20,413 bases of DNA, taken from positions 1 through 20,413 of the IMG/VR virus record IMGVR_UViG_3300027231_000029; one strand, given 5' to 3'. Made by a program: the position numbers and the translations under genes. Each line of letters opens with the position of its first letter. Position 1 is the first letter of the stretch. Below are positions 2,553 through 18,267 of this stretch, piece after piece. The notes under the pieces were generated by a model that saw only the letters and a list, made by a program, of their open reading frames with translations, ran no database searches and was not told the DNA's origin. The stretch comes from a virus.

Positions 2553-3785
2553 CTATGCGTTTAACGCTGTTTTCGCAGTTGCGAATGAACCAGTAACCAA
2601 AGATAGAACTCTGTTAGACGGCACGTAGCAAACCAATCTCATTTCCGCAAGGATAGTGATTAAGTTTTTAGTGAAATCATCATTCTCATGACCCATTGAG
2701 ATAGTAGCATCTTGTCTCATTCTCACGTTAACTTGAGAGAAATCACCAAGTAAGAAAGTACCAGCTGTGATACCAGTGTTTTTAATAACTGGGATACCAG
2801 CGAAAGTAGTAACACCGTTGTTAACTACGAATAATGAAGGTGCAACATAACCGTTATCAGTTGCTTTAGTCAACTCCATGAATGTAGCATCTGTTGGGTG
2901 TAACACGATTGCAGAAGGTAAGTAGTTAGCAGCCTCAACTTGGTTGATTGCAGTACGCAATACATCGAAGTTGTTAGCAGCAGTTCCAAACGTACCGGCA
3001 AAAGAACCAGCAGCATAAGTAGTTGATTGAGTAATGATACCATTCAAGTTCGGAGTAGTACCGTTACCACTTAATACACCGCTATCAGCTTTCAATGCAA
3101 TAAGTTCAATTAAGTTGTTTCTGATTTCTGCTTCCATGAAAGCAACATCGTCTAACATCTCCATTGATACTTTAGTGTAAGCCGTTACTTTTTCTACTTT
3201 CGCAGATTTTTCGTTTACGTCGAAATCTTCTTGAGTCTTAGCAGCACCTTCCGCAGTCATGCCAGCAGTACCAGGATCATTGTTAGCCATCTCAGCCCAT
3301 TGAACATACATCTTGTCAGTACGACCGAAGTTAGTAAGGTCAATGATGAAAGGTCTTCTTCTCTTAGTTGTTACCAAGCCAGTTGAAAAAGAAGCTAATT
3401 GATAAGGAATTGAGTTAGTACCAACAGCATCGATGTTAGCAGTGGTCATAGTACCAGCAGCTTTAACATTCATCTGAGCGCTAAACCCTTTCTTTTTCAT
3501 GTTAGCACCGTTTTCTTTAACGATTGCTCTGTAACCGTCAACGAATAAGTCAGCAAGTGATTTGTAAGATTCTGTTTTCTCTACGGCTGCCTCATTAGCT
3601 GCTTTCAATTTAACAATCTCACCGTTCACTTCGCTTTTTAATTCTTCTTTAGCTGCTTTAACTGCCTCTAATTCGGCTTTTAAACTTGCTACTTCGTTTA
3701 ATGATTCGGCTTTCACCGCATCAAGTTTTTTACCAACTTCAATGTTGATTGCGTCAACTAACGCTTTTTGGTCTTGTGCTTCCAT
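2553..3785 (-). CDS. Major capsid protein, HK97 fold
   Basis: At 410 residues this has the usual length for an HK97-type capsid precursor. Residues 1-75 form a charged Ala/Glu/Lys coiled coil typical of the scaffolding delta domain. Residues 95-110 (MKKKGFSAQ region) are a plausible cleavage zone. Residues from about 115 onward show the family pattern: a conserved SIPYQ segment, an E-loop-like region with TAEGAAKTQ and a spine-helix region with LSGNGTTPNLNGI. It would be cut by the protease encoded directly upstream, only 3 bases away, and assembles the icosahedral head. A strong terminator follows. Assignment by motif style and gene order is firm; the exact cleavage site is not. Confidence 0.93.
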   Translation of the reverse strand: MEAQDQKALVDAINIEVGKKLDAVKAESLNEVASLKAELEAVKAAKEELKSEVNGEIVKLKAANEAAVEKTESYKSLADLFVDGYRAIVKENGANMKKKGFSAQMNVKAAGTMTTANIDAVGTNSIPYQLASFSTGLVTTKRRRPFIIDLTNFGRTDKMYVQWAEMANNDPGTAGMTAEGAAKTQEDFDVNEKSAKVEKVTAYTKVSMEMLDDVAFMEAEIRNNLIELIALKADSGVLSGNGTTPNLNGIITQSTTYAAGSFAGTFGTAANNFDVLRTAINQVEAANYLPSAIVLHPTDATFMELTKATDNGYVAPSLFVVNNGVTTFAGIPVIKNTGITAGTFLLGDFSQVNVRMRQDATISMGHENDDFTKNLITILAEMRLVCYVPSNRVLSLVTGSFATAKTALNA

Positions 3786-15631: not shown

Positions 15632-16285
15632 TTAAATTTTTGTAAAATATTCAAGTTGTTGTTTAAAGTATTCATTTGCTAACCTAATCTTCTCCAGCAT
15701 CTCGTTTACGTCTGCTTGATCAACTTTAAACTTCTTGGTGAATAATCCGAAGTCGTTGGGTATTCTCGGGTCAAACCAAGCCAACACCGCAACATCGCAC
15801 TCACGCAAATAAGCATCTGAAAGAACTTGCCAAAACCGCATTGGTGAATTGGCTTTTAAATCTTCACTATCGCGAATCTCTTTAAGGTGGTTTACGGTGT
15901 TTAAACATTTCACCTCCAGCGCCCCGTTTAACTCTCTTATCCACCCATCACCACTACCACCGTAGTTCAATGAATCAATTTTGATAAAGCTTGTTTCTTC
16001 GATAGTCCACCCGTTCAATCTCGCTAAGTGCTTTTTCGCCAGCGGTTCGTTATCAATTCCCCATTGCATCGCCTGAGTAGTAAACACCTCTTCACGAATA
16101 CCCGTTAAACTTTCGGCAACCTTTTCCATTATGTACGTCTTAGCGCCGTCGCTTAACACTTCACCTTTCAATTTAGGCTTGGTCATTAGTCTGTAAATTT
16201 CCGATGAGGTGAAAACACCCAAACGGGCAGCGTGCCACTCAGGGCTACGCTGTTCCGCTTCTACTATTATTCTGCTGTGTTCCAT
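15632..16285 (-). CDS. YqaJ/lambda-Exo-type recombination exonuclease
   Basis: This 217-residue protein shows the YqaJ viral recombinase pattern: EQRSPEWHAARLGVFTSSE at residues 11-29, WGIDNEPLAKK with Glu80, GGSGDGWI with Asp113, and LEVKCL with Glu124 and Lys126, the acidic/Lys active site of the lambda exonuclease fold. It would resect double-stranded ends to single strands for the annealing protein encoded just upstream, which overlaps it by 19 bases. The pair forms a Red-like recombination system. All expected catalytic residues are present. Confidence 0.88.
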   Translation of the reverse strand: MEHSRIIVEAEQRSPEWHAARLGVFTSSEIYRLMTKPKLKGEVLSDGAKTYIMEKVAESLTGIREEVFTTQAMQWGIDNEPLAKKHLARLNGWTIEETSFIKIDSLNYGGSGDGWIRELNGALEVKCLNTVNHLKEIRDSEDLKANSPMRFWQVLSDAYLRECDVAVLAWFDPRIPNDFGLFTKKFKVDQADVNEMLEKIRLANEYFKQQLEYFTKI

Positions 16286-16965
16286 TTTGTTGTTGGTTTA
16301 GATTGAATTGCTGTAATATCATATACTTCCTCTTGAGTCATTATACCCATTGACACCTCAGGCGCGAATTGACGCGTGAAGAATGCAGCTGCCCGGTAGC
16401 GCATCATTAATTGTGGCATTGTTTTCCATTTGCTACCAGCCTTTTCAACCCATTTCTCAGCGTGTGCCATTTCCATCGTTACCCAAACACCTTCTACTTT
16501 GTCGCCTGTTGCTAAGTCAATCGCTACACCTCTGCATCTACCACCGTTGTTTTCATCTTCTTCAAATCTTAACGGTGAAAATTTACGGCTCGCGTTTAAA
16601 GTTGCGATTAAGAATTGAGAACTCCACGAAGGTTTGCCATGCACGATGTACAAGTTCTGCATAACCATTAACTCACTCGCACCTATTCTCTTTGCTACAT
16701 CGATAGCGATAAGGCAGTTGCTAATGTTATTCTTATATTGCACTGGCACCAAGTCGCTAACACTTAAAGCCTTTGCTACTCTCATCGCGTGCTCAAAGCC
16801 TTCTTTGTTACCGAATGTACTTAGTTCACCGCCTTGTTGAGGTGCTGGATGCAATGTTATATTGCTTTCTGTTTGCTCACCTACTTGGTGCGCCTCGCCT
16901 TCATTCACCAATTCAATGATCGGCTCAATGTTGACATCTGTGATTGTTGTTTGTTTGTTTTCCAT
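16267..16965 (-). CDS. RecT-like single-strand annealing protein
   Basis: This 232-residue protein has a disordered N-terminus (1-55). The core includes AMRVAKALSVSDLVP, NLYIVHGKPSWSSQF and later KWKTMPQLMMRYRAAAFFTR and MGIMTQEEVYD. These segments are typical of the RecT-type annealing proteins of Bacteroidota phages (the HGKPSW...MPxLMxRYRAA...EEVYD series). It should coat single strands and anneal complementary ends, partnering the YqaJ exonuclease encoded next. The leader before ATG 16965 is a CAAACAAC variant of the motif seen before other genes. Confidence 0.8.
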   Translation of the reverse strand: MENKQTTITDVNIEPIIELVNEGEAHQVGEQTESNITLHPAPQQGGELSTFGNKEGFEHAMRVAKALSVSDLVPVQYKNNISNCLIAIDVAKRIGASELMVMQNLYIVHGKPSWSSQFLIATLNASRKFSPLRFEEDENNGGRCRGVAIDLATGDKVEGVWVTMEMAHAEKWVEKAGSKWKTMPQLMMRYRAAAFFTRQFAPEVSMGIMTQEEVYDITAIQSKPTTKWNTAE

Positions 16966-17180: not shown

Positions 17181-17357
17181 TTACTTTGTTTTACGTTTTG
17201 CAATGTTTATATTCTCCTCGCTTGCTTCTATAAAGTTCACACCGTCAATAGTGGTAACGGGAAGCCTCCTCGTTTCGATTAAATAATAGATGCGCACTGG
17301 TGATTGATTCACCAGCCTTGCGAAGTTCGCTTGTTTTAATAGTTCTTTTTTTGCCAT
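17181..17357 (-). CDS. Small MerR/excisionase-like HTH protein
   Basis: A frame from ATG 17357 to TAA at 17181 encodes 58 residues. KELLKQANFARLVNQSPVRIYYLIETRRLP then VTTIDGVNFI is the layout of a MerR/excisionase-type winged helix: helix, turn, recognition helix, then a short wing ending in a hydrophobic 'DGVxFI'. There is no effector domain. It is the second gene of the leftward transcript and is the most likely DNA-binding regulator near the divergent promoters; autoregulation is inferred. Confidence 0.7.
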   Translation of the reverse strand: MAKKELLKQANFARLVNQSPVRIYYLIETRRLPVTTIDGVNFIEASEENINIAKRKTK

Positions 17358-17375: not shown

Positions 17376-17609
17376 TTACATTGTTATTAAAAGTATTCTA
17401 TTATCTGATTTGTTTTGCTTAACCCAACAATGATTAGAACCAAAGCCATACTTAAATCCTGATGTGTGCATCAATTTAAGCGCTTCTTTTAGGTGTTCTA
17501 ATGTTGGCTCTAATAACGCTGCTCTTATGATACCGTCAAGAGTTACTAAATCAAATTGATAGTCTTTAGTGTATGGATTAGATAATGATGATTCGATTTG
17601 TACTTTCAT
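17376..17609 (-). CDS. First gene of the leftward transcript, unknown function
   Basis: This 77-residue protein starts MKVQIESSLSNPYTKDYQFD, with a middle helix LEPTLEHLKEALKLMHTSGF and a polar C-terminus. No family recognised. The ATG at 17609 has the leader AAAACAAACAATATG and a consensus promoter about 25 bases upstream, so expression is well supported. First position suggests an early leftward product. Confidence 0.7.
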   Translation of the reverse strand: MKVQIESSLSNPYTKDYQFDLVTLDGIIRAALLEPTLEHLKEALKLMHTSGFKYGFGSNHCWVKQNKSDNRILLITM

Positions 17610-17635
17610 ATTGTTTGTTTTAAATTGTATAGAGG

Positions 17636-17669
17636 CAAATGTAGTAAACTTTATTTACAAACGAACAAA
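17636..17669 (-). promoter_or_regulatory. Leftward promoter of the divergent pair
   Basis: The minus strand has TTTG (17669-17666), 22 bases, then TACATTTG (17643-17636). The -7 box is a full TAnnTTTG match and lies about 27 bases before ATG 17609. A 13-bp repeat (17645-17657) lies in the spacer. The spacing is at the long end of the usual range. Confidence 0.55.
17645..17657 (+). repeat. 13-bp direct repeat, copy 1, inside the leftward promoter
   Basis: TAAACTTTATTTA is repeated identically at 17705-17717, exactly 60 bp away. It contains the near-palindrome TAAA-C-TTTA. It lies between the -33 and -7 boxes of the leftward promoter. Confidence 0.7.
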
Positions 17670-17684
17670 ATAAATAAAAATAGA

Positions 17685-17706
17685 TATTAACACTATATTG
17701 TTAATA
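17685..17706. promoter_or_regulatory. Palindromic operator candidate between divergent promoters
   Basis: TATTAACA, spacer CTATAT, TGTTAATA is an 8-bp perfect inverted repeat (22 bp in all). Its right arm covers the TTG of the rightward promoter, so a bound protein would block that promoter. Symmetry suggests a dimeric repressor. Confidence 0.6.
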
Positions 17707-17726
17707 AACTTTATTTATTATTTTTG
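17698..17726 (+). promoter_or_regulatory. Rightward promoter of the divergent pair
   Basis: TTG (17698-17700), 18 bases, then TATTTTTG (17719-17726) matches the Bacteroidota form. Transcription would start near 17733, giving a leader of about 50 bases with CAAACAAACAAAAAC before ATG 17784. Confidence 0.5.
17705..17717 (+). repeat. 13-bp direct repeat, copy 2, inside the rightward promoter
   Basis: Identical to 17645-17657. It lies in the spacer between the -33 and -7 boxes of the rightward promoter and overlaps the end of the palindromic operator by two bases. Confidence 0.7.
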
Positions 17727-17783
17727 TTGGAATTAAAAAACTTTACCTACATTTACCACATCAAACAAACAAAAACAGATAAT

Positions 17784-17930
17784 ATGAAAGCAACAGTAAT
17801 TAGAAAAGAAGGAAACGAAGTAAAAGAAATTACGTTTTCTAAAGTAAAAATAGCGCGAGGATATATTAAGGATGTCGAAGTATTAACACGAAATGGTGAA
17901 GTTAGTTATACACTTGTTAAAGGAAAATAA
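17784..17930 (+). CDS. First rightward gene, 48-residue basic protein
   Basis: The product starts MKATVIRKEGNEVKEITFSK and is a Lys/Val-rich, probably beta, protein. I chose ATG 17784, after the ACAAAC leader and inside the transcript predicted from the promoter, over a frame opening at 17724. The TAATATG junction couples it to the next gene. No family recognised; an early role is likely by position. Confidence 0.7.
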   Translation: MKATVIRKEGNEVKEITFSKVKIARGYIKDVEVLTRNGEVSYTLVKGK

Positions 17931-17931
17931 T

Positions 17932-18267
17932 ATGTACGACATTAACAAATTCTTAGAACACAGACGCTATATAGTTAGCGCGATTGACAAATTAGATTTT
18001 AACTTTGATGGTGTGGGCGATTACGATACCGATACCTTTGAATTTGAAATTGATATGGGTAATGTTAGCCTCGTGGTTAACGCGACTATCATGGAGACTT
18101 TTGTTTCTTATAGCAGAGAGACACGAGACGAGCCAGCAGACTATTTACTTGAACGCGAATTGAACGAGATTAACGAGGCTTATTATATCACCAGCGAAGG
18201 CGACGAAATTCCTTGTACCGATAACGAAATAGAAGCAATTAAAAACGTAATTAAATCTTTAATATAA
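17932..18267 (+). CDS. 111-residue acidic protein of unknown function
   Basis: The product starts MYDINKFLEHRRYIVSAIDK and is strongly acidic (DFNFDGVGDYDTDTFEFEID, then many Glu). ATG 17932 fits the TAATATG junction; a longer frame upstream lies inside the previous gene. Strongly acidic small early proteins sometimes mimic DNA to block host enzymes, but nothing beyond charge supports that here. Confidence 0.7.
   Translation: MYDINKFLEHRRYIVSAIDKLDFNFDGVGDYDTDTFEFEIDMGNVSLVVNATIMETFVSYSRETRDEPADYLLERELNEINEAYYITSEGDEIPCTDNEIEAIKNVIKSLI

Follow-up and report, generated by a model that had tools for sequence, protein, structure and literature searches.

A small winged-helix gene and its putative operators at two divergent early promoters change together as a cassette in Flavobacterium-type phages

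In the immunity region of lambdoid phages, back-to-back divergent early promoters have operators in common, and between phages such as lambda and 434 operator and regulator specificity have been exchanged together, the regulators Cro and CI being HTH_3-type proteins. To our knowledge, the early gene control of flavobacterial phages has been little described. Cox of P2-like phages and Apl of phage 186 are small winged-HTH proteins, encoded first in an early operon and acting on two opposed phage promoters, and Apl is known to repress both pR and pL (PMC7498355). These proteins double as excisionases of integrating phages, their promoters lie face to face, and their direct repeats are spaced one helical turn (about 10-11 bp) apart. 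BldC, which is not a phage early regulator, consists of a MerR-type winged HTH alone, about 60 residues with no effector domain, and binds A+T-containing direct repeats (PMC5859096) that form contiguous 9-bp units.

The locus described here resembles the lambdoid immunity region in its back-to-back promoters, an arrangement opposite to that of Cox and Apl, and resembles the latter in having a small winged-HTH gene at or near the start of an early operon; the weak profile matches of this HTH family also lean to Cox. BldC (6amk, 6ama) is among the best fold matches of the HTH protein, at about 17% identity. In contrast to the closely spaced repeats of these systems, the two boxes found here are 60-61 bp apart, 60 bp being equal to 5.7 helical turns.

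The window, by which we mean the whole stretch of DNA analysed, is the 20,413-bp IMG/VR record IMGVR_UViG_3300027231_000029 (positions 1 to 20,413). RecT (PHROG 561) and head genes place it among the tailed phages, and its capsid protein finds its best annotated matches in Flavobacterium phages, at 46.6% identity. Leftward from 17610 run a 77-aa gene, the 58-aa HTH gene, a 67/75-aa gene, RecT, a YqaJ exonuclease and, further on, the head genes, and a rightward set of small genes begins at 17784. The gap at 17610-17783 is, from its sequence, most likely the early control region of a Flavobacterium-type phage, with two divergent promoters. The features of the region are as follows.

16267-16965, minus strand: RecT (PHROG 561, E 4e-63), further down the leftward operon; its tree serves as the phylogenetic yardstick
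17181-17357, minus strand: candidate regulator, a winged-HTH protein of 58 aa and type A, encoded first or second in the leftward early operon
17376-17609, minus strand: 77-aa accessory gene between the HTH gene and the gap, from ORF maps of relatives and the L095 leader
17637-17644, minus strand: leftward -7 box TACATTTG, a perfect fit to TAHHTTTG
17645-17657, plus strand: left box TAAACTTTATTTA, abutting the leftward -7 and inside the leftward spacer
17666-17669, minus strand: leftward -33 TTTG, with a 21-nt spacer, from the sequence
17685-17706, no strand: perfect 8+6+8 palindrome TATTAACA-CTATAT-TGTTAATA, arms invariant at 8/8 positions in type A
17698-17726, plus strand: originally predicted rightward promoter, TTG (17698-17700)-N18-TATTTTTG (17719-17726), matching consensus
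17705-17717, plus strand: right box TAAACTTTATTTA, core invariant at 9/10 columns in type A
17723-17755, plus strand: alternative, conserved rightward promoter, TTTG at 17723-17726 (or TTG at 17727-17729) and -7 TACATTTA at 17748-17755
17784-17930, plus strand: 48-aa gene, first of the rightward early operon, function not assigned, from ORF maps
17932-18267, plus strand: 111-aa gene (p111), function not assigned, from identity comparison among relatives

Searches of Pfam and PHROG at E 0.1 gave nothing for the 48-aa gene, and neither p111 nor the HTH protein found a match in 50,697 phage records or, by pattern-based search, in GTDB genomes. In the ORF maps of L008, L009, L013, L019 and L095 the 77-aa gene is missing at the equivalent place; in the window it belongs to the leftward operon, and L018 has a homologue in its rightward operon. 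A-rich short leaders (AAACAAACAAAAACA) precede many of the small genes here and may act as exchange points.

Searches of IMG/VR with RecT, the HTH protein and the right-hand genes yielded about 18 contigs that share the gap. In each, the position just upstream of the 67-aa gene (one inserted gene further in L014) is occupied by the gene of a small HTH protein of one of four types: type A in the window, L003, L008, L009, L012, L013, L018, L019, L021, L023, L024, L026 and L095; type B in L006, L010, L011, L014 and L020, plus the diverged L028; type C in L030; and type D in L025. HTH type and site type agree at 17 loci with zero mismatches, counting L028 as a degenerate B, though independent cases are fewer than this and modest in number because several loci are near-copies (L003 of the window, L012 of L008, L026 of L024). 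L006 has RecT, 67-aa, 111-aa and 62-aa proteins that are 97%, 99%, 95% and 98% identical to those of the window, yet its HTH and sites are of type B. Conversely, L026 has only 73% identity to the window in RecT and 61% and 53% in right-hand genes, and its type A HTH is identical over 57 residues and accompanied by type A sites. The same holds more widely for the 111-aa gene, which is 95% identical to that of the window in type B L006 and L011 and 52-61% identical in type A L021, L023, L026 and L095. Identical RecT proteins accompany type A in L008 and L009 and type B in L006. Explaining the types on a RecT tree with 17 rows takes 7 changes, which is not below the number for shuffled labels, and for type A at least 5 changes are forced by well-supported branches. 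RecT, p67, p111 and p62 thus do not track operator type, and the comparison demonstrates that the putative operators and the HTH type are conserved or replaced jointly as one cassette, with flanking genes reassorting independently.

The original prediction noted identical repeats 60 bp apart and an 8+6+8 palindrome covering the -33 of its rightward promoter, and both are present: TAAACTTTATTTA starts at 17645 and 17705, a start-to-start distance of 60 bp, with just these two copies in the whole 20,413-bp record, and the palindrome occupies 17685-17706. Among 20,000 first-order Markov sequences modelled on the gap, an exact 13-mer repeat at least 20 bp apart arose in 1.1% (P about 0.011) and an 8-arm palindrome with a loop of up to 12 in 27% (P about 0.27). 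By itself, therefore, the palindrome is unremarkable in so A+T-rich a gap, and it is conservation in relatives that marks repeat and palindrome alike as real. Across nine aligned type A gaps, each box is invariant at 9/10 columns of the core consensus AAACTTTATTWAT. The conserved core of the palindrome is AACA (17689-17692) N6 TGTT (17699-17702), with arms invariant at 8/8 positions and the centre at 0/6, and such fixed arms about a variable centre are the pattern expected from a protein-bound dyad. Paired boxes on the same strand occur in every type A record (17 records searched), always 60 bp apart except in L009, where the palindrome centre is one base longer and the distance is 61. The prediction had staked itself on conservation of these elements in related phages, and boxes, spacing and palindrome arms are all conserved there. 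Outside the type A pairs, the 17 records contain only scattered one-mismatch matches to the box, and a search of the type B, C and D gaps found no boxes. An exact TAATAAACTTTATTTATTA occurs in five stretches of IMG/VR, three within gaps of this phage family and the others in L113 and L114; the L113 copy is taken as chance because it lies inside a coding ORF. We also considered the boxes as longer palindromes (TAATAAA-CTTTA-TTTATTA, 17702-17720) and dropped this description, since relatives keep the asymmetric core AAACTTTATTWAT and not the symmetry.

The other types have sites of their own. Type B gaps carry TTTGCGCAA once per promoter, in inverted orientation and at the -33, in four of five loci (L006, L011, L014 and L020), and within the L006, L011 and L014 records this sequence is confined to these promoters; L028, with its B-like HTH, has one degenerate TTTGCGAAA only. 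AACA-N7-TGTT is present in the type C and D gaps and absent from type B, so that the palindrome is common to A, C and D and the box confined to A; two proteins, one for each element, might be involved. TTAACAA sites form an array in type C, which in L030 is a near-perfect large inverted one, TTAACAAAACTTATTAACAAG-CGA-CTTGTTAATATCTTTTGTTAA. The locus thus has what marks a divergent early-promoter operator region: conserved putative operators at both promoters, matched to a linked candidate regulator gene.

Flavobacterium promoters have a -7 element TAHHTTTG, with transcription starting 4-5 nt downstream, and a weak -33 (PMC6847099). The gap contains the features of such Bacteroidota promoters: a -7 TAHHTTTG, A+T-rich upstream DNA and a weak -33. 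A scan for E. coli sigma-70 promoters, the wrong consensus for this DNA, gave no excess over shuffles and was set aside. The leftward half of the proposed divergent pair stands: its -7 fits the consensus and 17636-17644 is invariant at 7/9 columns among type A gaps, with a spacer of 21 nt, or of 22 nt if a script counts from TTG (17668-17666). The rightward half fares less well, as the proposed -7 TATTTTTG is kept in just 3/9 aligned type A gaps (the window, L095 and L024). By comparison, TAYWTTTR is found at 17748-17755 in 9/9, its last base being the consensus G in five and A in four, the window included, and a TAnnTTTR box also occurs in type B, C and D gaps. With 17748-17755 as the -7, each of the two leaders would measure about 23-24 nt, and the right box would lie directly upstream of the -33, outside the spacer. 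Either rightward -7, TATTTTTG or TACATTTA, may be in use in the window. The suggested symmetry of one repeat in each promoter spacer hinges on a rightward -7 that is not conserved in 6/9 type A gaps and, to that extent, is not supported.

The AlphaFold2 model of the HTH protein (mean pLDDT 90.6) has a helix-turn-helix, a two-stranded wing and a last helix, and Foldseek matched it to BldC, HiNmlR, SoxR, CadR, RacA and the Xis of mycobacteriophage Pukovnik. Probabilities to the MerR, BldC, RacA and Xis folds were about 0.8-0.97, with modest E-values of 0.15-0.6. The model points to a small winged helix of MerR/Xis/BldC-like (MerR/Cox) fold. Profile matches were weak: Cox (4lhf) was best in the PDB, at E 0.2, and single family members matched PF10743 at E 0.045 and phrog_9834 at E 0.014, the latter outscored by phrog_57 (terminase small subunit), the best PHROG and itself of weak E; the window protein had no match in Pfam. 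The gene is under purifying selection, and in seven type A relatives most of the nucleotides that differ from the window are at third codon positions. The distance from the leftward -7 to its start is 27-29 nt in eight loci, four of type A and four of type B; there it is thus the first gene of the leftward transcript, so that its product could control its own promoter. It is our best candidate, on this comparative evidence, for a regulator of both promoters. As originally suggested, then, the two divergent promoters appear to share a protein-binding regulatory region with the small HTH gene as nearest candidate, as HTH and operator types change together.

We think it probable that the HTH protein is a small self-regulating repressor and that phages exchange its gene and its operators as a single unit. 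The HTH protein would be made from the leftward promoter, would bind the palindrome, the two direct boxes or both and, as it accumulated, would shut both early promoters, a negative feedback like that of Cro, Cox or Apl; cassette types A, B, C and D would differ in operator specificity, as heterospecific ('heteroimmune') variants. The main rival reading, which we consider unlikely, is that, in the same cassette, the HTH protein is instead a MerR-like activator, bound in an overlong spacer, remodelling the promoter and switching early transcription on. MerR proteins do bind within such promoter spacers, the HTH has a MerR-type fold, and the left box sits between -33 and -7 in a 21-22-nt spacer. 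However, at 58 aa the protein is without the MerR dimerisation and effector part, basal firing would be needed if it is encoded behind its own promoter, type B sites cover the -33, which is a repressing position, and a leftward -7 that matches consensus should need no help.

Some co-inheritance is expected from linkage, since the HTH gene and the gap adjoin, and the sites might be bound by another protein, supplied by the host or encoded elsewhere by the phage, with the HTH gene co-travelling through adjacency alone; the AACA-N-TGTT palindrome, common to three HTH types, could belong to such a common factor. We consider this quite unlikely. Linkage alone is the weaker account because differing genes or a non-coding element separate the HTH gene from the gap in the window, L018, L021, L023 and L024, with the type pairing unbroken, and because p67, on the other side of the HTH gene, does not track the sites; a host factor, moreover, poorly explains wholly different sites alongside identical RecT. 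Direct repeats in an A+T-rich gap adjoining recombination genes could also be iterons or some other replication or recombination element, not operators, but this is very improbable: there are only two boxes, the conserved sites lie against or across promoter boxes, type B has the same promoters with a wholly different site arrangement, and integrase and resolvase families were not found in 13 possibly incomplete records of relatives.

The original prediction also envisaged a protein that chooses between the promoters, which would amount to something like a lysis-lysogeny decision. In contrast to the integrating phages of Cox and Apl and to the lambdoid phages with their HTH_3-type Cro and CI, the records of 13 relatives, which reach 44.5 kb and may be incomplete, yielded no integrase or resolvase (PF00589, PF00239), ParA or HTH_3 (Cro/CI-type) gene, leaving such a choice, and lysogeny, without support. 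Since these genes were not found, nor relatives of the HTH protein or p111 in GTDB, a lysogeny (CI/Cro) switch seems unlikely, with the caveat that the relatives' records are probably incomplete, and an early autorepressor is likelier.

Two further elements lie at these loci. An apparently non-coding element of ~291 nt is found rightward of the gap in L013, L019 and L021 and leftward and inverted in L018 (87% identity between L018 and L019), starting a few nt from an early -7 box. Its ends are complementary, GTTC(T/A)TTGAGGG and CCCTCATTGAAC, followed by a T-run in three; it had no credible Rfam match and no match in phage records, and it folds no better than shuffles (MFE z-score -0.37). In L014 (L097 about 2600-3180), a NUMOD4-HNH_3 endonuclease ORF lies between the type B HTH gene and the 67-aa gene, fused in frame to a second HTH that is about 61% identical to the type A HTH of the window.

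The L014 endonuclease-HTH fusion may be a driver of cassette exchange. It is conceivable, if on balance doubtful, that non-integrating phages trade 'immunity-like' cassettes of this kind, each a MerR-fold autorepressor of ~58 residues with operators at two divergent early promoters, such that near-identical phages carry mutually blind types, with the L014 homing endonuclease perhaps driving the exchange. The four natural types, each joining a tiny regulator to the DNA sites it probably recognises, offer a ready test set for two questions: how DNA is read by a minimal MerR-fold protein that has no dimerisation domain, and whether phages that apparently do not integrate have immunity types that can be exchanged.
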